33,812 nucleotides of DNA, taken from positions 1-33,812 of the forward strand of contig JAUHYX010000005.1 of the NCBI GenBank assembly GCA_030426285.1. The letters run 5' to 3'. How positions within the stretch are numbered: position 1 is the first letter of the stretch; every line of letters starts with the position of its first letter. The DNA is from a bacterium. GTDB lineage: Bacteria > Bacteroidota > Ignavibacteria > Kapaibacteriales > UBA7675. Below the pieces are notes generated by a model. The model was not told the DNA's origin, ran no database searches, and was given only the letters and a program-made list of their open reading frames with translations. Both the position numbers and the translations under genes were made by a program. Of this stretch, positions 6,145 to 19,150 are shown in pieces.

Positions 6145-9100
6145 TTACAGTTTCACAAACGTAAACAGATGGGTTTTGCCTGCAGCTTCTATAACCAATG
6201 AATATGTTCCTGCAGGTAAAGAAGATGTTTGAACTTGTATATCGGTCCCATGAGTTGTCCACGGTGCGGAAACCTTCTGTCCTGACATCGAGGTCACTAC
6301 AAGACTCTTTGGTGCTGCGTTCAGACCTTGAATAACAACATGGTCGCGCGCAGGGTGGGGGGCTAGCACGATGCCGTGTTGTGCGTCAATGACATCTGTA
6401 AGAGCCTGAACAACGACTTCAGACGTCATGCTGCAGCCGTACTCATTCGTAATGACAACATAGACTTCATATTCAACAAACAGTTCCAATTCACCGGCAT
6501 ACACTAATTCTAGGAGATTCTCGATCTCAACCTCTTTGCCGTCTACAAACCACTGTACCTGTTCATAGTTTTCGCATACATCACAACGGAAGGCTTCATT
6601 AAGCCAATCTCCTCCAGCTGTGAGAAACTCAACTTCGATAACTGGCAAGTCTGGGAGAGGACGCTCAACAACCGTAATCGTGTCGCTTATCACCTGGCAG
6701 CCACGATCGTCGACCGCTGTTGCCCAATATTCACCAGGTTCCGAAACTTCAATGACGTCGTCTGTCATACCATTCGACCACTCAACAGACTCAAAGCCAA
6801 TAACACCAAGTTCTATCGAAGCACCAGAGCAATATTCAAATGTGTTTGAGAGGTCTGTTAAATTGATGACGGCGGTCGTCACAACATCACTCATTGTGAC
6901 TTCGGCAGTTCTCATTTGTTGGCATCCACCTGGCCAGACCACCGTTACTGAATACGAGCCTGGTGTATCGACGGTGATTGAAGAGCCTGTGCTTCCTGTA
7001 CTCCATTCGAATGTTGCACCATCCAATGGGTGGGAGAAGTCTTCTTCAACAAATAGTGTTGTTGCTGTTCCCGGGCACAACTGAGTTTCGCCTTCCAAAA
7101 ACATATTTACGTCACATTCTGGAATCCACGCCAACCTACCTGAGGGAGCTGAACCAGCAGCTGAGAACTCTCCACCTACCAACCAACCGTCTCCCATGCG
7201 AGCCATTGTGTTAACTCTGCCATTGGTTCCCGAACCAAAAGCAGCAGCAGTGGAATCCAAGAGACCAATGCCTGAGACTTCACAATCTCCTACAAATTCT
7301 ACGTCTCCCGCCATCCCGATAGACTGATCTCCAATTGCGGAAACGGCAAATACAATTCCTTGTACTTCGTAACCACCAACCATAGATAGGCTCTGCATAC
7401 TTCCAGCCGCAAAATTCTGAGCACCTAATTCTTGATCAATAAATTCCCCAGCCATGAGAAAAATACCTTCACCGATAAAGGAAAGATCATACACGATGCC
7501 TTCAACGCCGGAACCAATTGAGCGCCATCTATCGGATGTCCAATATGCAATGCTGTGGGAAGAGAGTCCACTCGCAGGTGTAAAAGCTCCGCCAGCTAAC
7601 ACATACTGATCATTGTCAGGTGCAATCTCAATGACATTTACTCTCGCATTCATACCGCTCGCCATGGCTTTCCATTGAGAGCCATCCCAAGACGCAATTC
7701 GGTTTGCTGATGTAGATCCTATTTGCGTGAAATCACCACCGCAGTACATGTTAGAAGGTGACGTGCCAGCTACAGCAAAAACGGCAGCATTTGCCCCATC
7801 TTCCAAGCTGTTCCAATTGCCATCATAGTATGCAACATAGTTGGTATTGAGTTCGTCAATTTGTGTGAATTCTCCGCCGACAAGGAGAGAGCTCCCAATT
7901 GCTGCCACGGAGTTGATACGGCCATTAAACTCGCCGGGGAAAGCGGCCCAATCGCCATCCACATTCATAGCAATATTGCTTGCAATACGGTCACCAGCTA
8001 CATCAAAGTCGCCAACCACAACAAATGAATTGTCACCTGAAGCAACAATATCTGTTACGACGCCGAGAATGGCATTATTACTGCGGCCAGATACGGAACT
8101 CCACGAACCAGTTGTTGATTCTACTGCCAAAGAAGCCACAACCGTACTGCCATCATGCTCAAATGATCCGCCAAAGAGGCGATGTGTCATGTATGCAGAT
8201 TGCTCGTAAACGGGGCCATTAAAGGCATGTGAGGGAGCCTGAAACATTGGCTGTGGAATATTGAATAGATACTCCACAACATACTGCGGTTGCTCTATTC
8301 CGCCTTCGGCAACAATGTCTCCACCAATACTGAGCACCCCGCTGCCGTCTTGGGTAACTCCCAGTGAACGAACTGTACCGGTAACTGAGGTGATCGCGGT
8401 TGTAGAGCCAGATTGATCGGTTAGTCCACTCCAAACATTGCTACTCCACTTTGCAATATTTTGCGTGCCATCAAGGTTGTTGATATGCGTAAATGCTCCT
8501 CCGATAAACAGTCCAGATTCATGCGGCAGCAATGTATACACTGTGCCACCACTCGTGACGCCTTCATCGAGAGCACTCCACGTTGCACCATTCCAGCTCG
8601 CAATGCTCTGCGAAGCCGTTCCTCCGGCAAGGCTAAAGGTGCCACCCACAAAAAGTGAACCGTTGTATTCGGCCATGCACTGAACAGATGCTCCTTCAAT
8701 GCCTGCGCCAACAGCAGCCCATTGAGATCCATCCCATGCAGCGATGCGCGTGGCACCAATACTCCCAGCGGTTGAGAAGTCACCGCCGACATACAGTTTT
8801 CCACCGTACACATGTAGTGCGCGAGTCGTATCGTTAACTCCACCACCGAATGGACCCCAATTGTCGCCATTCCACGATGCCACAAAGTTGAGTGTAACGC
8901 CATCAACACTTGTAAATCCACCTGCAGCAACTACTTCACCATTGTATTCTACCAATGCATAAACAGGTGCATTGAATTTGCCTGGAGACCGCCACGCGGT
9001 TCCGTCAAAGTAGGCAATGTTCGAGGCAAGAGTGCTCTCTGCAGAGGTAAAGTTCCCGGCTACCCAGAGATTCCCATGCGCATCTACAAGACTAGCGTAT

Positions 9101-9255
9101 ACCGTGCCATCGATGCCATTGCTTGAAAACTGTTGGATGATTTCATCGTACCAGTCACGGGAGTCACACTCTTGAGCATAGGCTGTGCTAGAGATTGTGG
9201 CAGATAAGCACATGAGGCACAGAATTGTAACGAATGTATGCAAGCGTTGAGACAT
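6145..9255 (-). CDS. Large secreted beta-propeller-like protein with Ig-like domains and T9SS sorting tail
   Basis: 1036 residues. A signal peptide ends near STAYAQ (residue 28). Residues about 45-720 hold roughly fourteen repeats of about 45 residues, each with a strand of the form LxVGGxFT followed by IAxWDGxxW and often GxGxxGxV. This resembles kelch-like or delta-60-type propeller repeats. Residues about 725-950 look like two or three Ig/PKD-like domains with paired cysteines (CPGT, YCSGAS, CDVCENY). The last 75 residues are a T9SS type A-like sorting domain: APHPARDHVVIQG, then MSGQKV, LPAGTYSLVIE, and a final hydrophobic strand ending FVKL. It should be exported by Sec, then T9SS, to the surface or medium. 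AAGGAAC precedes the ATG. It is probably the first gene of a two-gene operon with the Cys-repeat lipoprotein. Confidence 0.85.
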   Translation of the reverse strand: MSQRLHTFVTILCLMCLSATISSTAYAQECDSRDWYDEIIQQFSSNGIDGTVYASLVDAHGNLWVAGNFTSAESTLASNIAYFDGTAWRSPGKFNAPVYALVEYNGEVVAAGGFTSVDGVTLNFVASWNGDNWGPFGGGVNDTTRALHVYGGKLYVGGDFSTAGSIGATRIAAWDGSQWAAVGAGIEGASVQCMAEYNGSLFVGGTFSLAGGTASQSIASWNGATWSALDEGVTSGGTVYTLLPHESGLFIGGAFTHINNLDGTQNIAKWSSNVWSGLTDQSGSTTAITSVTGTVRSLGVTQDGSGVLSIGGDIVAEGGIEQPQYVVEYLFNIPQPMFQAPSHAFNGPVYEQSAYMTHRLFGGSFEHDGSTVVASLAVESTTGSWSSVSGRSNNAILGVVTDIVASGDNSFVVVGDFDVAGDRIASNIAMNVDGDWAAFPGEFNGRINSVAAIGSSLLVGGEFTQIDELNTNYVAYYDGNWNSLEDGANAAVFAVAGTSPSNMYCGGDFTQIGSTSANRIASWDGSQWKAMASGMNARVNVIEIAPDNDQYVLAGGAFTPASGLSSHSIAYWTSDRWRSIGSGVEGIVYDLSFIGEGIFLMAGEFIDQELGAQNFAAGSMQSLSMVGGYEVQGIVFAVSAIGDQSIGMAGDVEFVGDCEVSGIGLLDSTAAAFGSGTNGRVNTMARMGDGWLVGGEFSAAGSAPSGRLAWIPECDVNMFLEGETQLCPGTATTLFVEEDFSHPLDGATFEWSTGSTGSSITVDTPGSYSVTVVWPGGCQQMRTAEVTMSDVVTTAVINLTDLSNTFEYCSGASIELGVIGFESVEWSNGMTDDVIEVSEPGEYWATAVDDRGCQVISDTITVVERPLPDLPVIEVEFLTAGGDWLNEAFRCDVCENYEQVQWFVDGKEVEIENLLELVYAGELELFVEYEVYVVITNEYGCSMTSEVVVQALTDVIDAQHGIVLAPHPARDHVVIQGLNAAPKSLVVTSMSGQKVSAPWTTHGTDIQVQTSSLPAGTYSLVIEAAGKTHLFTFVKL

Positions 9256-9404: not shown

Positions 9405-10748
9405 CTAATATTGCTCCATGGCCTTTGCGATCATGGCCTCACCTTCCGGAGAATCCCAGTTTTCAGAGAAACCAGGCTGGGCAAAAAGGTGTTCAAATAG
9501 TCGGTCCTGACGTTCTTTCTGTTGCCATGCAATGTTATATGGTGTGTGTGTAAAAGTCACCAATGAATACAGTGGCGTGAACTGGTCAGGATACATTCGC
9601 TGTATTTTTTTCTCAATTTTCTTGCGCAACAAGAATTGTGGATTTGCCACGCTATCGCGCATTTCAATAAAGTTATACAGCGCCAAGTCGGCAATGCCGT
9701 CGCCACATGGCTTGCGCTCGGCTCCAAAAGCAGGTACTGCCTTGCTCCAGTCGTCTTGACAGTCATCCAGGATGCGATCAAACACAGAACAGTCTTCAAA
9801 CCCTGATATCATGCCCTGTCCGTAAAACGGAACGATGGCATGTGCTGCATCTCCGGTGAGCATTATTTTGTCTTCCTTTGTCCACGGCTCACAGCGAATT
9901 GTGGCAAGAGAGGAGGTTGGGTTGGCGTGCCAGTCCTCCAAAAGTGTCGGCATGTGTTCTAGTGCATCGGGGAATTGTTGTTTGAAGAAGTTGACTACAT
10001 CGTCATCGGACTGCAAACTCTCAAAGCTGACTTCTCCCTCAAATGGGAAAAACAGCGTGCAGGTGAAACTACCGTCAATATTTGGCAGAGCTATAAGCAT
10101 ATACGAGCCGCGGGGCCAAATATGCAGGTAATTTTCAGGAATTCGGAATCCACCTTCTTCAGCAGCAGGGATGCAGAGTTCTTTGTATCCATGTGACAAG
10201 TAAGACTGCGAATAATTGAATCTGTCTGTTTTCATCATAGCGCCGCGCACTGCAGAAAATGCACCGTCGGCACCAATCACATGGTCGGCAGAAACAACAG
10301 TAGACTCTTGTGTGACTTCGTTGGTGAACGACAATGTGGGGGAATCTAAGTCAACATCAGTGCAGCGTTCGTTAAAGTGAATCGTTACATTGCCGGTTGC
10401 TTCTGCGGCAGTCATCAAGGTTTTGTTGAGTCCACCACGCGACACACTGTAGATTGACTCACCTTCTTGGCCATATGCCTGAAAGGTGGTGTTCCCTTCA
10501 GTATCATGCATCATGCGTCCTTTCATTTCAACGCTGGTTGAGCGCACTTCATCCGCAACGCCTGCCATTTCGAGTGCTTTCCAGCCGCGAACTGAACAAG
10601 CAAGATTTATCGATCGTCCCGCTGGAATTTGTGCCGTACGCATATCCGGCCTGCGTTCATACATTTCAACGGTGTACCCGCGTTTGGCGAGTAGAACTGC
10701 TTGCATTGACCCAACGAGTCCTGCTCCTGCAATGACGATTTTTTTCAT
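9405..10748 (-). CDS. kmo: Kynurenine 3-monooxygenase
   Basis: 447 residues, the usual size for KMO. It is an NADPH- and FAD-dependent enzyme that hydroxylates L-kynurenine to 3-hydroxykynurenine. FAD-binding GAGLVG is at 8-13 and the acidic strand end (MYERRPDMR) at 29-37. The KMO-typical RSINLACSVRGWKALE is at 45-60. The DG motif GADGAFSAVR is at 159-168 and the GD motif GDAAHAIVPFYGQG at 299-312, close to the family form. The C terminus lacks an obvious membrane anchor of the mitochondrial type. It is the last gene of the minus-strand kynurenine operon, 45 bases after an outer-membrane protein gene, and a strong hairpin follows. Confidence 0.95.
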   Translation of the reverse strand: MKKIVIAGAGLVGSMQAVLLAKRGYTVEMYERRPDMRTAQIPAGRSINLACSVRGWKALEMAGVADEVRSTSVEMKGRMMHDTEGNTTFQAYGQEGESIYSVSRGGLNKTLMTAAEATGNVTIHFNERCTDVDLDSPTLSFTNEVTQESTVVSADHVIGADGAFSAVRGAMMKTDRFNYSQSYLSHGYKELCIPAAEEGGFRIPENYLHIWPRGSYMLIALPNIDGSFTCTLFFPFEGEVSFESLQSDDDVVNFFKQQFPDALEHMPTLLEDWHANPTSSLATIRCEPWTKEDKIMLTGDAAHAIVPFYGQGMISGFEDCSVFDRILDDCQDDWSKAVPAFGAERKPCGDGIADLALYNFIEMRDSVANPQFLLRKKIEKKIQRMYPDQFTPLYSLVTFTHTPYNIAWQQKERQDRLFEHLFAQPGFSENWDSPEGEAMIAKAMEQY

Positions 10749-10793
10749 ATGTACTCTGCTGTAGTTGTTTGTTTCACAATTGTTCAGAGGCTT

Positions 10794-11423
10794 TTATCCG
10801 TCAAACTCATTCGGAATAAAGCGCAGTTGCAGTGAAATATTCTGCAAATACGCCGCACCTCTATCACTTGAGCGTATTGACAAAAAGTCTCGATAATACG
10901 CTACACCAATTTCCAAAAACGAATGTGTGCGAACATGAACACTCATTGTCCCGGCAAGTGCAAAACTGCGAAATGTTGCAGAAATGTCACTCTCGCCTGT
11001 GTTGCCGTTGCTACCCTTGTACTTGTTGACGGCGGAAAGCAGCCAACCCGGTTCAATCCCGGCTCGAACAATAAAACTGTTGGCTTCGAGAGGGGATACG
11101 TAGATGCCAAGTGGAAATCCAAAGCGTTTGATCAAAACCCAAGACTCTACACTTTCTTGTGTTGCGTCTAAACTGTATCCGCCTTGTCGATACAACAACG
11201 CGCCGGTAATACCAGTCGTTTCAGAATACTGGTAGTCCATTGCCACTCCGGTCTCAAAACCCAAGAGAGCTGAGGTAGCAACATCTGCGTCAAGCGAAGC
11301 AGATGCGGAGCTCAATCCAAACACAAACTGTGGTTCAGCCTCAAATGTGGTTGAATCTGATTGTGCTTGGGCAGTCAACATGCATCCGAGGAATAAAAGT
11401 GCTATGCTGCAGGCGTTCTTCAT
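10794..11423 (-). CDS. Outer-membrane beta-barrel-like protein inside the kynurenine operon
   Basis: 209 residues from ATG at 11423. This start gives a clean signal peptide (MKNACSIALLFLGCMLTAQAQ) and avoids overlapping kynureninase, whose stop lies 1 base upstream (TAA at 11427-11425). A longer frame from 11504 exists but would put 27 residues ahead of the signal peptide. The mature part has alternating strands with Gly and aromatic residues (GFETGVAMDYQYSETTGITG, LLYRQGGYSLD, FLEIGVAYYRDF). It nears its end with ISLQLRF, as in small porin-like or PorT-like barrels. It lies between kynU and kmo in the same direction, so it is cotranscribed with catabolic enzymes. A role in uptake is possible but not shown. 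Confidence 0.75.
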   Translation of the reverse strand: MKNACSIALLFLGCMLTAQAQSDSTTFEAEPQFVFGLSSASASLDADVATSALLGFETGVAMDYQYSETTGITGALLYRQGGYSLDATQESVESWVLIKRFGFPLGIYVSPLEANSFIVRAGIEPGWLLSAVNKYKGSNGNTGESDISATFRSFALAGTMSVHVRTHSFLEIGVAYYRDFLSIRSSDRGAAYLQNISLQLRFIPNEFDG

Positions 11424-11424
11424 A

Positions 11425-12702
11425 TTATAGGTCCAAGTATGTTTTAAGAATGCTATAGAATCTGAAAACATCATGGTAGGTGTTGTAAAGTGGCACTGGT
11501 GCAATGCGAATGACGGCTGGTTCGCGCCAGTCGGCTACCACACCGTGCTCAGTCAGATAGTCGAAGCATGTTTTACCATGGCCGTGCAACACAAGTGACA
11601 ATTGACAACCGCGCTGAGCCATGTCGCGCGGAGTAATGATGTCTATCACTTTCGTACCATTCCGAGTATTGAGATCCTCAATGAGGTATTCAAGATAACC
11701 AGTTAGTTGCTTTTGTTTAGCTACGAGTTCGTGCATTGATACTTTGTCAAAAATATCTAGCGAGGCGCGATGAGCTGCCATGAGCAGAACAGGGGCATTC
11801 GATAGCTGCCAAGCCTCTGCTGTTGCTTCAGGGCGAAATCCCTTTTTCATTTCAAAACGTTCGGATTCTGCATTGCCCCACCAACCTCCGAATCGAGGCA
11901 AACTGGTGTTTTGAGCATGGCGTTCGTGAACGAATACGCCTGACACCCCGCCCGGGGATGAATTCAAATACTTGTAGCTACACCATACGGCAAAGTCAAC
12001 ATCCCATTCATGCAGGTGTAGTTCTACATTTCCAACTGCATGTGCCAAATCCCAACCAACCACTGCGCCAGCTCTGTGCCCAGCTTTCGTGATTTCTGGA
12101 ATCTCAAAAAACTGACCTGTGTAATACTGCACTCCAGAAATCATCACCAATGCCAATTGGTCTGCATGCTGTTCAATTGTGGCGACAATATCTTCAGTTC
12201 TCAGCGTGTGTTCGCCATCTCGAGGTGATAGCTCAACGATAGCATCGTCTGGATTCAAGCCGTGATGGCGCACTTGGGTCTCGAGTGCATATTGGTCAGA
12301 CGGAAACGCACCGGCTTCGCAAATTATCTTAAAACGTTGCTCAGTTGGCCGATAGAATGTCACCATCATGAGGTGCAGGTTGACAGTTAGCGCATTCATT
12401 GAAACCACTTCGTGTGGTAGCGCACCTACGATTCGAGCCAGCGAGTCAGTTAGTTGCTTGTGGTATGAAAACCACGGTCTGCGCGAGTGCATGTGCCCCT
12501 CAACGCCATACTTGTGCCAGTCTTCTAGCTCAAGCATAACACTATCTGCTGTTGCTTTTGGTTGCAGTCCAAGTGAGTTTCCGCACAAGTACACACACGG
12601 TTCGCTATTGTGCTGTGGAATCAGAAACTCATCGCGAAACTCGCGCAGTGGATCCTGTTTGTCAAGTGAGGTAGCAAACTCCGCTGTTGCTTGAAATTCC
12701 AT
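11425..12702 (-). CDS. kynU: Kynureninase
   Basis: 425 residues, the normal length. This PLP enzyme cleaves 3-hydroxykynurenine (or kynurenine) to 3-hydroxyanthranilate (or anthranilate) and alanine. CGNSLGLQPKA is at 40-50 and the glycine/histidine segment GHMHSRRPWFSYH at 69-81. The PLP-contacting Asp218 lies in WDLAHAVGN (217-225), and the Schiff-base lysine is K244 in CSYKYLNSSPGG. All agree with the fold-type I kynureninase family. Its ATG overlaps the stop of the decarboxylase gene by one base (TAATG), showing translational coupling. With KMO in the same operon, 3-hydroxykynurenine is the likely substrate. Confidence 0.97.
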   Translation of the reverse strand: MEFQATAEFATSLDKQDPLREFRDEFLIPQHNSEPCVYLCGNSLGLQPKATADSVMLELEDWHKYGVEGHMHSRRPWFSYHKQLTDSLARIVGALPHEVVSMNALTVNLHLMMVTFYRPTEQRFKIICEAGAFPSDQYALETQVRHHGLNPDDAIVELSPRDGEHTLRTEDIVATIEQHADQLALVMISGVQYYTGQFFEIPEITKAGHRAGAVVGWDLAHAVGNVELHLHEWDVDFAVWCSYKYLNSSPGGVSGVFVHERHAQNTSLPRFGGWWGNAESERFEMKKGFRPEATAEAWQLSNAPVLLMAAHRASLDIFDKVSMHELVAKQKQLTGYLEYLIEDLNTRNGTKVIDIITPRDMAQRGCQLSLVLHGHGKTCFDYLTEHGVVADWREPAVIRIAPVPLYNTYHDVFRFYSILKTYLDL

Positions 12703-13715
12703 TATTCAAACATCTCTTTTTTTAGTCCTAAAAATTCCAATGCCGAGTCAGCAAACAACTGCTCTTTTGTTGAAGCACTGAGATCATCCATTTGTTCTAT
12801 GAACTTGCCGTGTTCCAAATCGCCAAGAGGAAACGGATAGTCGGTGCCGTAAGCGATGCGATTGGCGCCAACCACACTCATGGTGTAGCGCAAGGCGTCT
12901 TGATCATGAGTAATGCCATCTACCCAAAATTTGCCAGCGTATTCGCGCGGGTCTTTGACATTGTTGAGATTGACCAAGTCTGGTCTGCAATGCCAGCCGT
13001 GTGAGATGCGACCAAGTGTATGCGGGAACGACCCACCGCCGTGAGCAAAAAGCACACGCAGGTCTGGAAATCTGTCGAACACCCCACCAAACATCATCGA
13101 ACAAATTGCACGACTCGTTTCTGCTGGCATGCTTACCAACCACGGCAACCAATACTTTTCTATCTGATCAAAGCCCATCATGTTCCACGGATGAACCATA
13201 ATACATGCATTTGTTTCTACTGCCGTTTCCCAGATGACGTCAAATTGCGGATCGTCGAGGTTTATGTCATTGATGTTTGATCCGATTTGCACGCCGGGGA
13301 GGTTGAGTTCGTTGCGTAAGCGACGCAGTTCTTGAGCAGCAAACTCTGGATGCTGCATCGGGAGAGTGCCCAAGCCAACAAAACGTTTTGGATAGGGGGA
13401 AATCACTTCAGCCAAGTGGTTGTTGAGAAACTGCGACCAATCCAATCCGTCCTCTGGCTGTGCCCAATAGTTGAACAGCACGGGTACTGTACAAAGCACC
13501 ATAACGTCAACATTGTGCGCATCCATTTCTGGTAGAATCGCAGCGGGGTTCCAACAGTTTTCTTGAATTTCTCTGAAAAACTTACCGTCGTCACGCATCA
13601 TGCGCGCGCTGCCTTGTTTGTGATGATCGAGATAGATAAATCCGCCGTACCCATACTTTTCTTTGAGATTTGGCCAAGATTCCGGTAACAAGTGTGCGTG
13701 AATATCAATTTTCAT
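12702..13715 (-). CDS. nbaD: 2-amino-3-carboxymuconate-6-semialdehyde decarboxylase (ACMSD)
   Basis: 337 residues, as in bacterial ACMSD. This zinc amidohydrolase-superfamily enzyme decarboxylates ACMS to 2-aminomuconic semialdehyde. That diverts carbon away from quinolinate and NAD synthesis toward full oxidation. Metal ligands are visible: His6 and His8 in DIHAH, His175 in VHPWNMMG and Asp292 in GTDYPFPLGD. Catalytic His225 is in FAHGGGSFPHTLGR. Arg48 (KFFREI) matches the substrate-binding Arg near position 51 of the Pseudomonas enzyme. It begins 27 bases after the dioxygenase gene and overlaps kynU by one base. The Pseudomonas-style name nbaD is used by function. Confidence 0.95.
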   Translation of the reverse strand: MKIDIHAHLLPESWPNLKEKYGYGGFIYLDHHKQGSARMMRDDGKFFREIQENCWNPAAILPEMDAHNVDVMVLCTVPVLFNYWAQPEDGLDWSQFLNNHLAEVISPYPKRFVGLGTLPMQHPEFAAQELRRLRNELNLPGVQIGSNINDINLDDPQFDVIWETAVETNACIMVHPWNMMGFDQIEKYWLPWLVSMPAETSRAICSMMFGGVFDRFPDLRVLFAHGGGSFPHTLGRISHGWHCRPDLVNLNNVKDPREYAGKFWVDGITHDQDALRYTMSVVGANRIAYGTDYPFPLGDLEHGKFIEQMDDLSASTKEQLFADSALEFLGLKKEMFE

Positions 13716-13742
13716 AAGAAGAGTAGCATTCAGTTTGGTGAA

Positions 13743-14261
13743 TTAAGACTGTGGTGGAGTCATGACTGTGCCACACGATTTGCATGTGCGGTGTTCGGTT
13801 GACGAATAGAAGTTTTCAAACACTATCGGCAGTTGTTTTACGATATCGGTGAGGTCCATAAACTCTTCATACAACTTGCCTGAACAGTTGTCACAGAACC
13901 ACATAAATGCGTCCTTTTCGCCTTCGCGGCGCTTGCGCTCAACTACGAGACCTACTGTATCTGCTCCACGTTGCGGCGAATGTGGGACTTTAGGAGGGAG
14001 GAGGAAAATTTCACCTTCTCTGATATCAACTTTCTTGATTTCACCATCAACATGCAGTCTCAAATGAATGTCGCCCTCGAGCTGATAAAAGAACTCTTCA
14101 GACTCATTGTAGTGGAAGTCTTTGCGGTTGTTTGGGCCGCCAACAACCATGATTATGAACTCGGTGTCTTCGTATACGACTTGGTTGCCAACGGGTGGTT
14201 TAAGCAAGTGTCTGTTGTCGTCTATCCACTGTTTGAAATTTATTGGCATCCGAAATGACAT
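13743..14261 (-). CDS. nbaC: 3-hydroxyanthranilate 3,4-dioxygenase
   Basis: 172 residues from ATG at 14261, chosen because TCCTCCC at 14266-14272 gives a perfect GGGAGGA ribosome site. A longer frame to 14375 would run across the divergent promoter. This cupin enzyme opens the ring of 3-hydroxyanthranilate to give ACMS. Fe(II) ligands are His50, Glu56 and His94, with substrate-binding Arg47 and Arg98, all nearly in register with the Cupriavidus enzyme. Bacterial-type C-terminal cysteines C123, C126, C160 and C163 form the expected second, rubredoxin-like iron site. It is the first gene of the five-gene minus-strand operon. Also called haaO. Confidence 0.96.
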   Translation of the reverse strand: MSFRMPINFKQWIDDNRHLLKPPVGNQVVYEDTEFIIMVVGGPNNRKDFHYNESEEFFYQLEGDIHLRLHVDGEIKKVDIREGEIFLLPPKVPHSPQRGADTVGLVVERKRREGEKDAFMWFCDNCSGKLYEEFMDLTDIVKQLPIVFENFYSSTEHRTCKSCGTVMTPPQS

Positions 14262-14344
14262 AGAGTCCTCCCGACATAATCGTATGAAAGTGTTATCTTC
14301 GCGACAAAATACGAAATAATAACGACCTTCAATTGAACACGACC
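14262..14344. promoter_or_regulatory. Divergent control region between the two kynurenine gene arms
   Basis: This 83-base space separates the minus-strand dioxygenase operon from the plus-strand SDR/dehydrogenase genes. Both arms should be transcribed from here and may share one regulator. The minus arm has a strong ribosome site (14266-14272); the plus arm has none that is clear. I found no exact TAnnTTTG element or obvious palindromic operator, so the promoters are inferred from layout. Confidence 0.5.
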
Positions 14345-15127
14345 ATGAACATTTCATTGGCCTCAAAAAAAGCACTGATATGCGGTAGTTCGCAAGGAAT
14401 TGGTTGGGCTACGGCTCAGTGCATGGCAGAAGCTGGCGCAACAATTGTGTTGCTCGCCCGCAACAAAGACGTCTTGGAGAAGCGCCGAAGTGAGCTTCGC
14501 ACACCGGCAATACAACACCACGAAGTTCTCGTCGCAGATTTTGACGATGTGACGCAGCTGCGATCGGTGTTGGAAACAAGAGGGATGCACGATATTGATA
14601 TCCTTGTGAACAACACTGGGGGACCTCCTGGAGGCCCGATAGCTGAAGCAGGGGACGATGAATTTTTGCGCACGTTTCAGCGACATCTGTTGGGGAACCA
14701 AGCACTCGTGCAATCGGTGTTACCGGGAATGCAAAAACGCAAGTTCGGTCGCATTCTGAATGTCATCTCAACATCGGTAAAACAGCCGATTCCAGGACTC
14801 GGTGTCTCTAATACTGTCCGCGGTGCAGTAGCAAACTGGGCAAAAACACTTGCAGGTGAAGTTGGCAAGTTTGGCATTACCGTGAACAATGTGTTGCCGG
14901 GCGCAACGGCAACAGCAAGGTTGGATCAAATTGTTGAGAAGAAGATGGCTACAACCGGGAAATCGCGTGAAGAAGTCGAAGCCTCGCTGCTGTCAGCCAT
15001 CCCGGCCGCACGTTTTGGCAAACCAGAAGAGCTCGCATATGTGATGACATTCCTGGCATCTGATTTCGCGTCTTATATCAATGGTGTAAATGTACCGGTT
15101 GATGGCGGCCGTACCGCGTGTTTGTAG
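14345..15127 (+). CDS. Atypical SDR-family protein, candidate for an unassigned aminomuconate step
   Basis: 260 residues from ATG at 14345; a TTG four codons earlier is less likely. It is a Rossmann-fold short-chain dehydrogenase/reductase related to FabG-like reductases: GSSQGIG at 14-20 (TGxxxGIG), NNTGG at 89-93, GKFGITVNNVLPG in the normal place, and the C-terminal NGVNVPVDGG. The active site is unusual. The segment that should read YxxxK aligns as SNTVR (Ser155, Arg159), so both the catalytic Tyr and Lys are replaced. Ser142 or Ser144 could be the catalytic Ser. It lies divergent from the kynurenine operon and 47 bases before the semialdehyde dehydrogenase, so a role in this pathway is likely. 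The reaction is unknown; reduction or processing of 2-aminomuconate is only a hypothesis. Confidence 0.82.
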   Translation: MNISLASKKALICGSSQGIGWATAQCMAEAGATIVLLARNKDVLEKRRSELRTPAIQHHEVLVADFDDVTQLRSVLETRGMHDIDILVNNTGGPPGGPIAEAGDDEFLRTFQRHLLGNQALVQSVLPGMQKRKFGRILNVISTSVKQPIPGLGVSNTVRGAVANWAKTLAGEVGKFGITVNNVLPGATATARLDQIVEKKMATTGKSREEVEASLLSAIPAARFGKPEELAYVMTFLASDFASYINGVNVPVDGGRTACL

Positions 15128-15174
15128 AGTGTCGTGATTCTGATGTTTTCATTGTTACCAACTTGGATTGAGTA

Positions 15175-16617
15175 GTGGAAAAACTTCGCAACTATATCAA
15201 TGGTAAGTTTTGCGCACCAGCAAGTCGCAAATACTTGGAAAATGTTGAACCAGCTACTGGAAGAGTGTATTCGCTAATTCCAGATTCCGATGAACGCGAT
15301 GTTCAGAAGGCCGTAGACGCTGCTAGTGCCGCGAAAAAGGCATGGGGCGCAACCGAGCCGGAACAGCGAGCAGCAATACTCAACCGCTTGGCCGACTTGA
15401 TTGAGGACAACCTCGACGAGTTTGCGCTTGCAGAGTCTCGCGACAATGGTAAACCTTTGTGGCTTTCAAAAGCCGTTGATATTCCACGTGCCGCAAGAAA
15501 CTTCAGATTTTATGCCACAGCAGCTGCGCAATTTGGTTCTGAGTCTTCGGTGCAAGGAGATGTGTTGAACTATACATTGCGAAAACCAGTCGGTATTGCC
15601 GGGTGTATCTCGCCGTGGAATTTGCCACTGTATCTGTTCTCTTGGAAAATTGCTCCGGCATTGGCCGCTGGGTGCTGCGTGATCGCAAAACCTTCTGAGG
15701 TAACACCGCTGACTGCCTACTTGTTGTGCCGACTCCTCAAAAAGGCTGGCTTCCCTGACGGTGTTGTTAATATCATACACGGAAATGGTCCCGGTGCCGG
15801 TGCGCCAATTATCGAACACAAAGACATTCCGGCAATTTCGTTCACAGGTGGAACCGCTACCGGAGAGTGGATTGCTCGCACAGCAGCGCCAATGTTTAAG
15901 AAGCTGTCGCTTGAATTGGGCGGCAAGAATCCAACCATTGTGTTTGATGATTGCGACTTTGAGACAACCGTTCGAGGTGTGGTTCGCGCTGCATTTGCCA
16001 ATCAGGGACAAATCTGTTTGTGCGGCTCGCGCATCTATGTGCAACGCGGGATCTACGAACAATTTCGGGATGCCTTTGTGGAAAAAGTACAGACATTGAC
16101 ATGTGGAGATCCGCTTAAGCCAAAAACAAAGCAAGGTGCTGTGGTAAGTGAGAGTCACATGGAAAAGGTATTGTCCTATATCGAACTCGCTCAAGAAGAA
16201 GGAGGAACAGTTCTCACTGGTGGAAAACGCGCGCGAGTTTCTGGTAGGTGCAAGGAAGGCTATTTCATAGAGCCAACCGTCATAGAAGGCCTCACTGCAA
16301 CTTGTCGCACCAATCAAGAAGAGATATTTGGTCCTGTTTGTACTATTGAGGCGTTTGACACAGAGGAAGAAGCAGTACAACTCGCCAATTCTACGAAGTA
16401 TGGATTGGCTTCGAGTGTGTGGACTTCAGACTTGAATTGTGCGCACAGGATGGCAGCAAACATCGAAGCTGGAATTGTTTGGATCAATTGCTGGCTCGAA
16501 CGAGACTTGCGCACGCCATTTGGCGGCGTTAAGCACAGTGGAGTTGGTCGTGAAGGGGGCATGATTGCACTCGACTTTTTCACCGAACCAACCAATGTTG
16601 CAATCAAAGTGAATTGA
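15175..16617 (+). CDS. nbaE: 2-aminomuconic 6-semialdehyde dehydrogenase (ALDH family)
   Basis: 480 residues. The NAD-dependent aldehyde dehydrogenase oxidises 2-aminomuconic semialdehyde to 2-aminomuconate. The catalytic cysteine is C281 in NQGQICLCGSRIYVQ, the general base Glu247 is in LELGG, and Asn149 is in SPWNLPLYL. RAARNFRFYA (105-114) and SPWNLPLYLFSWKIAPA (146-162) are typical of the aminomuconic/hydroxymuconic semialdehyde subgroup (ALDH8A1-like). This supports the specific call over a generic ALDH. The start is GTG at 15175 (MEKLRNYINGKF). It follows the SDR gene by 47 bases and lies opposite the operon that makes its substrate. A terminator-like hairpin follows. 2-hydroxymuconic semialdehyde is the main alternative substrate. 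Confidence 0.92.
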   Translation: MEKLRNYINGKFCAPASRKYLENVEPATGRVYSLIPDSDERDVQKAVDAASAAKKAWGATEPEQRAAILNRLADLIEDNLDEFALAESRDNGKPLWLSKAVDIPRAARNFRFYATAAAQFGSESSVQGDVLNYTLRKPVGIAGCISPWNLPLYLFSWKIAPALAAGCCVIAKPSEVTPLTAYLLCRLLKKAGFPDGVVNIIHGNGPGAGAPIIEHKDIPAISFTGGTATGEWIARTAAPMFKKLSLELGGKNPTIVFDDCDFETTVRGVVRAAFANQGQICLCGSRIYVQRGIYEQFRDAFVEKVQTLTCGDPLKPKTKQGAVVSESHMEKVLSYIELAQEEGGTVLTGGKRARVSGRCKEGYFIEPTVIEGLTATCRTNQEEIFGPVCTIEAFDTEEEAVQLANSTKYGLASSVWTSDLNCAHRMAANIEAGIVWINCWLERDLRTPFGGVKHSGVGREGGMIALDFFTEPTNVAIKVN

Positions 16618-18023: not shown

Positions 18024-18154
18024 GTCGTCTTCTCATTGAAAGTGAAGCAATGCTACTGGTCTAAATTTAACAAAATGAGCTTCTGATCGCGAATACTGCC
18101 GCAATTCGAACAGATTTCTCGTAGGTTTCGCCAAAACATTTGGAGTACACGCGT

Positions 18155-19150
18155 ATGAACCGCAAACAATTTCTGAAAACAATAAGCGCTGCTGGTGTTT
18201 TGTCGACCCTGCGCTTACCCAACACATTGTCGGCAGCACCAGCCAAAGAGAGTGAGTGTGTGTTGATCCCATCTGAAACAGCTGGCCCATTCCCTCTAGA
18301 TCTAACTGACAACAGTGCATTTTTGCGCTCAGATATACGTGAAGATCGCGGCGGACTCGAACTCAGATTGAGAATGCGGATTGTTGGTGAGGACAATTGC
18401 GCCCCAATGCCAAACGTGCGGGTTCACATATGGCATTGTGATGCTGATGGTGTGTATTCTGGATACAATACTGGCAATAATCCTGGGGATGTCAATGACA
18501 CGTGTTTTCGTGGACACCAATTCACTGATGAGAACGGCGAAGTTCAGTTCACAACTATTTTGCCTGGTTGGTATCCCGGCCGCATTTGTCACATTCATTT
18601 TCAGGTGTATGTGAGTAGTTCGTACTCAGCAACATCGCAGTTTACGTTTCCTATCGCGCCCAAAAATGAACTGTATGGTGCGAACTCTGAATTGTATCCC
18701 AAAGGTGCTGACCCGTTGTCATTTACGCAGGATGGAGTGTTTGCCGATGGGGTTGACGGACAGGTTGCTACATTGGTGGTAGAGAATGATGGAACAGCCT
18801 CGTCGTTCTTTGAAGCCACCGTGCGCGGCGCGGGAACAGTGGGCGTAGGACACTACGAACGCCGCACCGAACAATATATTCATGTTGGTCAGCCGTACCC
18901 CAACCCAAGTGTAGAGAGAGTGCGCATACCATTTGCTCTACATCGTTCAGCTCGTGTAAAGTGTTCTGTGTACGACATCGAAGGCAAAAAATTGATTGAC
19001 CTTTGCGATGCTGAATTCACAGCAGGCGAGCACCTAGTGGAGTTGTTGCCAAGTATGCTTGGCACTGAGGTTTCACGCGTGATTTGTCAGTTCGAGGTTG
19101 TTACCGATGAGGGTGTTTTTCGCATTCCGAGGGTGATCATTGTGCACTAG
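18155..19150 (+). CDS. Exported intradiol ring-cleavage dioxygenase-like protein with T9SS sorting tail
   Basis: 331 residues from ATG at 18155, preceded by TTTGGAG (18139-18145). An in-frame TTG at 18140 is less likely. The N terminus MNRKQFLKTISAAGVLSTL is a signal peptide with an RKxFLK motif, a near-consensus Tat signal. Residues about 35-225 match the intradiol dioxygenase fold with all four Fe(III) ligands: Tyr101 (DADGVY), Tyr140 (LPGWYPGR), His146 and His148 (CHIHF). The last 85 residues look like a T9SS type A sorting domain (GQPYPNPSVERVRIPF, YDIEGKKL, AGEHLVEL, ending VIIVH). It may cleave catechol-type aromatics outside the cell; the substrate is unknown. It is divergent from gdhA and near the kynurenine genes. 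Related exported family members exist in other bacteria. Confidence 0.85.
   Translation: MNRKQFLKTISAAGVLSTLRLPNTLSAAPAKESECVLIPSETAGPFPLDLTDNSAFLRSDIREDRGGLELRLRMRIVGEDNCAPMPNVRVHIWHCDADGVYSGYNTGNNPGDVNDTCFRGHQFTDENGEVQFTTILPGWYPGRICHIHFQVYVSSSYSATSQFTFPIAPKNELYGANSELYPKGADPLSFTQDGVFADGVDGQVATLVVENDGTASSFFEATVRGAGTVGVGHYERRTEQYIHVGQPYPNPSVERVRIPFALHRSARVKCSVYDIEGKKLIDLCDAEFTAGEHLVELLPSMLGTEVSRVICQFEVVTDEGVFRIPRVIIVH

Follow-up and report, generated by a model that had tools for sequence, protein, structure and literature searches.

Can an iron enzyme that seems to be addressed to Tat at one end and to T9SS at the other be carried through both machines in turn, and so come to act outside the cell? 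The question is raised by a gene in a 33,812-nucleotide stretch of DNA from a bacterium of the Kapaibacteriales (contig JAUHYX010000005.1 of assembly GCA_030426285.1), which is called the window below. The ORF at 18155-19150 of the + strand encodes a product of 331 residues that consists of a signal, an intradiol dioxygenase and a T9SS tail. A sequence-only reading had proposed that this protein is exported by Tat and then sorted by T9SS. Its ORF, coordinates and strand are correct, with the ATG at 18155 and the stop codon at 19148-19150. The features of the gene are the following.

18142-18145, + strand: Shine-Dalgarno-like GGAG at a spacing of 9 nt from the ATG, read directly from the sequence.
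18155-19150, + strand: the whole gene, stop included; an ORF with full-length relatives at 40-52% identity.
18155-18238, + strand: predicted Tat-type signal peptide, residues 1-28, from the motif, the low hydrophobicity and the low-pLDDT N-terminus of the model.
18161-18178, + strand: Tat-like motif R3-K4-Q5-F6-L7-K8, from family conservation and a whole-genome motif search.
18251-18859, + strand: intradiol ring-cleavage dioxygenase domain, residues 33-235, from PF00775 (best stretch 56-143), the PDB and Foldseek.
18257-18259, + strand: Cys35, putative disulphide partner of Cys82 (18398-18400).
18455-18457, + strand: Fe(III) ligand Tyr101, invariant in 44 relatives and 13 further aligned homologues.
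18572-18574, + strand: Fe(III) ligand Tyr140, invariant in the alignments.
18587-18589, + strand: Cys145, adjoining the ligand His146, with Cys95 (18437-18439) as a possible partner.
18590-18592, + strand: Fe(III) ligand His146, invariant in the alignments.
18596-18598, + strand: Fe(III) ligand His148, invariant in the alignments.
18860-19147, + strand: T9SS type A-like sorting domain, residues 236-331, from profile tests and an AlphaFold2 model of the tail, which is an Ig-like beta-sandwich.

The dioxygenase gene is flanked on one side by a divergent gene, which is glutamate dehydrogenase-like as read by eye only, and on the other by the gene for a 1062-aa protein that has no confident family match and a single sub-threshold one. 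Genes for the kynurenine route of tryptophan breakdown are located at window positions 9405-16617 and encode a FAD monooxygenase (KMO-like), a kynureninase, an amidohydrolase (ACMSD-like), a 3-hydroxyanthranilate dioxygenase, an SDR protein and an aldehyde dehydrogenase. A link between the intradiol dioxygenase and this pathway was considered and rejected, because the kynurenine neighbourhood is absent around the genes of the relatives. The aldehyde dehydrogenase gene, which was considered as a frame-broken one, is a single intact open frame with a non-ATG start. On the opposite strand, positions 6145-9255 encode a 1036-aa beta-propeller (Rax2-like) with a T9SS type A tail above the NCBIfam cut-off, an ordinary Sec-type cargo.

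The central part of the protein matches PF00775 (Dioxygenase_C) with 46.3 bits against a cut-off of 27.3 (E 4.1e-12). The Fe(III) ligands Y101, Y140, H146 and H148 are all at the positions that the sequence-only reading had assigned to them, and none of them varies among the 44 relatives. The closest solved structures by sequence are those of a secreted mite intradiol dioxygenase (6bdj/5vg2, 2e-20), and the Streptomyces protein SACTE_2871 (4ilt/4ilv) is also matched. An AlphaFold2 model, for which the family alignment was used, also matches these structures, 5vg2 with a Foldseek E of 2e-12 and a TM of 0.71 over the target, and thus has the intradiol fold. Judged by its ligands and its fold, the gene product is a Fe(III) intradiol dioxygenase of the secreted kind, the catalytic activity of which is predicted.

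The domain also contains conserved cysteines. Cys35 and Cys82 are invariant in the tailed family and nearly so in homologues from other phyla, and we infer that they are likely to form a disulphide. Cys145, directly before the ligand His146, is shared by all 41 tailed relatives of the alignment; it is missing from 12 tail-less homologues of other phyla, from L081 and from the distant tailed proteins L222, L227 and L230-L233. Cys95 would be its possible partner.

A single scan of the genome collection yielded the 44 relatives, all but one of which belong to the Bacteroidota/Chlorobiota/Ignavibacteriota group by their record names; 41 of them form the aligned full-length set, with 40-52% identity to the window protein. 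The R-[K/R]-x-F-L-K signal, the dioxygenase and the T9SS type A tail are kept together in at least 41 full-length relatives. The parts follow each other in the same order in all 41 aligned sequences: the signal, which is short and basic, comes first, then the dioxygenase, and last a tail that contains a PNP motif. Relatives of this tailed architecture span Bacteroidota, Kapaibacteria and Ignavibacteria. Furthermore, of 60 related genomes, the majority of which belong to the same order, 16 contain a homologue, not counting the window's own genome, and the homologues read from these 16 genomes have tails and Tat-like starts, several of which are RR. The window protein forms the longest branch of the family tree (1.51, compared to a median of 0.36).

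A LytTR response regulator is encoded within ~4 kb of the dioxygenase in 12 relatives (L039, L041, L043, L044, L045, L050, L052, L057, L067, L074, L077 and L080), with a gene for a His_kinase-family sensor in 11 of them; counted over the loci that have long flanks, the LytTR gene is near the dioxygenase in 10 of 26. Two-component regulation of the tailed dioxygenase is possible in those relatives. The LytTR/His_kinase pair is absent from the window. Some genomes contain two copies of the tailed dioxygenase, either in tandem, as at L045 (8001-9008 and a copy ~0.9 kb upstream), or as L055 and L078, both in genome G018. The homologue at G102:C159:2842-3842 (L234, L235) is found in two overlapping frames, split near residue 132, either through an error in sequencing or because the gene is broken.

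The N-terminus of the window protein is MNRKQFLKTISAAGVL. The RKxFLK Tat-like signal had been read correctly, and its basic pair is R-K, not the canonical R-R. The R-x-x-F-L-K context is complete and is followed by a weakly hydrophobic h-region; we infer that the signal is cleaved near LSAA-P. In the first alignment (n=43), R3 is found in 40/43 sequences, K or R at position 4 in 39/43, F6 in 43/43, L, I or V at position 7 in 43/43, and K or R at position 8 in 40/43. Across 50 members, the pair that ends at the second motif position is RK in 33, RR in 8 and KR in 4, and the remaining 5 have neither K nor R at this position. The RR members are scattered over the tree, with at least 7 parsimony changes, 2 of which are forced by well-supported branches, so that RR and RK look interchangeable in the family. 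Among the Tat profiles, PF10518 (TAT_signal) weakly matches 7 of 42 members and TIGR01409 weakly matches 2 of 42, and the window protein is matched by none. Because most members have R-K and 5 of the 50 lack both K and R at the second position, the majority of the family would fail predictors that strictly demand twin arginines.

The hydrophobicity of the signal is low. Measured as the maximum mean hydropathy over 12 residues, it is 1.59 +/- 0.21 for the family and 1.38 for the window protein. The value is 2.58 +/- 0.35 (minimum 1.95) for 61 T9SS cargos with Sec-type signals from the same genome, and 1.1-2.0 for RR-bearing proteins of this genome. In this comparison the family members are related to each other, so that its Mann-Whitney p is not to be taken literally. 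The Sec set comprises those of 66 complete T9SS-tailed ORFs read from the genome that have a clearly hydrophobic signal: the cut at a hydropathy of 1.9 leaves out a Tat-like protein and four others in which no signal could be recognised, and the choice of start codons for the cargo ORFs favours hydrophobic starts. A motif of the type RxxF[LIVM][KRQ] or R-x-x-F/W-L-K is present in 0 of these 61 cargos. A Sec-only signal, which the sequence-only reading had named, together with periplasmic localisation, as an outcome that would speak against it, was not seen; by its motif and its hydropathy the window signal is unlike the Sec-type signal of the usual T9SS type A cargo.

The strongest competing explanation is that the protein is an ordinary cargo, exported by Sec before it enters T9SS, and that RKxFLK is just an n-region that is basic by inheritance. 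In reviews, T9SS cargo is assigned to Sec (PMC9251779, PMC5449463), and the R-K pair of the window protein, together with the 5 of 50 members whose second position is not basic, is consistent with such an origin. Oxidative folding in the periplasm would fit the conserved cysteines; if they are disulphide-bonded, they would not be oxidised in the reducing cytoplasm before Tat export, which counts against the Tat route. An inherited basic stretch, however, is difficult to reconcile with a motif whose conservation greatly exceeds that of the remaining signal, F6 being found in every sequence of the first alignment, with the lack of the motif in the Sec-type cargos of the genome and with the low hydrophobicity. 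Furthermore, RR precedes the domain in all 12 sampled tail-less homologues (L082-L093), which are plasmid-collection records from Actinomycetota, Cyanobacteriota, Alpha-, Beta- and Gammaproteobacteria and Deinococcota. Tat export thus looks like the rule for this enzyme type, with the T9SS tail added in Bacteroidota and their relatives. Export by Sec is therefore unlikely, and the Tat route is predicted for the window protein with good confidence.

The sequence-only reading had also called passage from Tat to T9SS unusual. The route is unusual with respect to the reviews cited above, but it is not unique to the dioxygenase, because two DUF1501 proteins of the same genome share both signals. 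The whole genome was searched for M-x-R-[K/R-like]-x-F-[L/I]-[K/R], with N, S, H and Q allowed as well in the second place. Of the 5 matches, 3 are real ORF starts: the window gene and the two DUF1501 genes. One of the latter (G000:C149:2007-3596, L179) begins with MKRRDFLK and its tail scores 18.1 bits with TIGR04183 and 28.9 bits with a profile of the genome's own tails. The other (G000:C172 from 4224; L124, L183) begins with MKRRDFIK and scores 35.2 bits with TIGR04183, over the cut-off. All three real genes with the exact start in this genome are therefore T9SS-tailed, and a chance occurrence of the motif was rejected. The two DUF1501 proteins, with RR signals and T9SS tails, indicate that the route probably serves a small cargo class. 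No T9SS tail was found on the other Tat-type proteins of the genome, in which RR is at a different distance from the start. A DUF1800 gene precedes the C149 DUF1501 gene.

An RKxFLK start is also found, in Bacteroidota genomes that carry the family, on two LigB extradiol enzymes (L192, L201) and two pirin/quercetinases (L206, L210), as well as on tail-less intradiol, lipoprotein-like L198 and L081 (Bacteroidota). These occurrences suggest that R-K is a common Tat variant in Bacteroidota. The presence of the motif on LigB and pirin/quercetinase proteins, which are of the metallo-dioxygenase type, fits a Tat signal for metal-loaded enzymes.

Both machineries that the protein would need are encoded in the genome. 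The search for Tat and T9SS genes that the sequence-only reading had recommended found TatC, TatA/B, SprA, PorU and about 100 cargo tails. There is one TatC (216 bits), two TatA/B-type genes lie side by side, and about 100 tails are over the TIGR04183 cut-off. The SprA and PorU matches are each split over two contigs, as expected in a fragmented draft assembly. In the 42 genomes that carry the family, TatC is present in 37 and SprA in all 42; TatC may be missing from the other 5 through incomplete assemblies.

The C-terminus (residues 236-331) had been taken for a T9SS type A-like tail, and the profile tests agree, since it matches sorting-domain profiles built from the family and from its own genome. 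With the general profiles the window tail remains below threshold: 17.9 bits with PF18962 (cut-off 27) and 14.0 bits with TIGR04183 (cut-off 23). At a loose limit of E 10, TIGR04183 matches 41 of 42 family members and PF18962 matches 38, with best E-values of 4e-9 and 3e-8, respectively. The family tail profile, built without the window tail, gives it 65.4 bits (E 2.7e-19), and the own-genome profile, for which other T9SS cargos of the window's genome were used, gives 26.9 bits, compared to 6.4 and 8.6 bits, respectively, for the best of 1000 shuffled tails. The own-genome profile scores all 41 tails at 25-51 bits, whereas the maximum in 1025 shuffles is 8.8. The shuffles led us to reject a chance match, and by its sequence the window tail is clearly homologous to T9SS type A tails. 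The AlphaFold2 model of the tail is an Ig-like beta-sandwich of seven strands with a mean pLDDT of 91. Foldseek matches of the tail alone are to generic Ig-like domains, none at E <=0.001, so that the fold alone proves nothing; RemA-CTD bound to T9SS (8gl6_D) is among the matches at E 0.007.

No other tail in the family is as diverged as that of the window protein: its mean identity is 27%, compared to a median of 45%, and it has lost the near-invariant N247, T256, Y309 and Y311. Its partial decay is possible, and the protein or its tail may be fast-evolving or losing function. The enzyme might thus be exported by Tat and then reside in the periplasm, its decayed tail no longer sorting it in the window species, as the sub-threshold scores, the divergence and the longest branch of the tree would allow. 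This outcome is improbable, because the tail is full length and in frame, is recognised by two independent profiles and is modelled as an intact sandwich, and because other T9SS tails of the genome score low too, the C149 DUF1501 tail among them. Passage of the window copy through T9SS is accordingly regarded as very probable. With its R-K pair and its diverged tail, the window copy makes the case less well than its relatives do.

Taken together, the gene most probably encodes a Tat-exported, T9SS-sorted and probably surface-exposed Fe(III) intradiol dioxygenase, a reading to which we assign a probability of about 0.72. The polypeptide would fold and bind Fe(III) in the cytoplasm and would be exported by Tat in the folded state through its R-K-x-F-L-K signal. 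In the periplasm, the folded C-terminal Ig-like domain would be recognised by T9SS, and the dioxygenase would pass through SprA, with PorU processing or anchoring it, and would end at the cell surface or be released. Folded proteins are moved by T9SS (PMC9251779, PMC5449463), which makes a folded, Tat-exported cargo mechanically compatible with it. Outside the outer membrane, the enzyme might perform ortho cleavage of catecholic rings, such as those of plant phenolics and of humic-type or siderophore-like catechols, and this extracellular ring opening might serve before uptake or as detoxification.

Mite enzymes of the same sub-type have an unusually open active site and cleave catechols, caffeic and chlorogenic acids, catechins and procyanidins (PMC9167512), which by analogy suggests a similar substrate breadth for the window enzyme. 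It is very improbable that the protein has kept the fold for a structural or other Fe(III) role and does not cleave rings: the activity of the tailed members is a prediction and the mite enzymes cleave catechol itself with low efficiency (PMC9167512), but the four ligands and their surrounding motifs are invariant and the characterised mite relatives do cleave catechols and larger phenolics.

Bacteroidota and their relatives might have a permanent route from Tat to T9SS that serves a class of folded cargo, to which at least the DUF1501 proteins and the tailed intradiol dioxygenases, in which the second arginine is usually a lysine, would belong; we consider this generalisation somewhat favoured. 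If it is true, metalloenzymes loaded in the cytoplasm could work on the cell surface, and the cleavage of aromatic rings would be extracellular in environmental Bacteroidota, which bears on the turnover of plant phenolic and humic matter. The data also suggest that R-K Tat signals of the Bacteroidota group escape predictors based strictly on RR. The conserved family with Tat-like signals and T9SS tails allows a direct test of whether a folded, metal-loaded protein passes through both machines.

Exported intradiol dioxygenases and T9SS type A cargo are known already; what surprises is the combined route. To our knowledge, the combination of Tat and T9SS is not listed in textbooks. In the open-access literature we found no paper that connects T9SS with intradiol enzymes or type IX secretion with DUF1501, and none on Tat with a sorting domain and a dioxygenase. 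T2SS is described as the only two-step outer-membrane system that is fed by Tat (PMC5449463, PMC9251779).

The best match in sequence and fold is Tetur07g02040 (TuDOG6) of Tetranychus urticae (5vg2, 6bdj), which is secreted and has the same four ligands and the equivalents of C35 and C82. Unlike the window protein, it is exported by eukaryotic secretion, has neither a Tat-type signal nor a T9SS tail, and has Pro at positions 95 and 145. The Streptomyces protein SACTE_2871 (4ilt, 4ilv) resembles the window protein in that a bacterial intradiol domain is joined to an extra module, but this module is carbohydrate-binding according to the PDB title, and the organism is monoderm, so that there is no outer-membrane step. 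The intradiol dioxygenases with Tat signals from Acaryochloris, Sinorhizobium, Cupriavidus, Deinococcus, Paracoccus and Nonomuraea (L082-L093) share the domain, the ligands and an N-terminal twin-arginine motif; they differ in having RR, not RK, and no T9SS tail, and are expected to be periplasmic, or released in monoderms. T9SS type A cargo (TIGR04183/PF18962), finally, has a signal peptide and a C-terminal Ig-like sorting domain, as does the window protein, whose genome contains SprA and PorU. The documented cargo of this type is Sec-exported, whereas the signal of the window protein is Tat-like.
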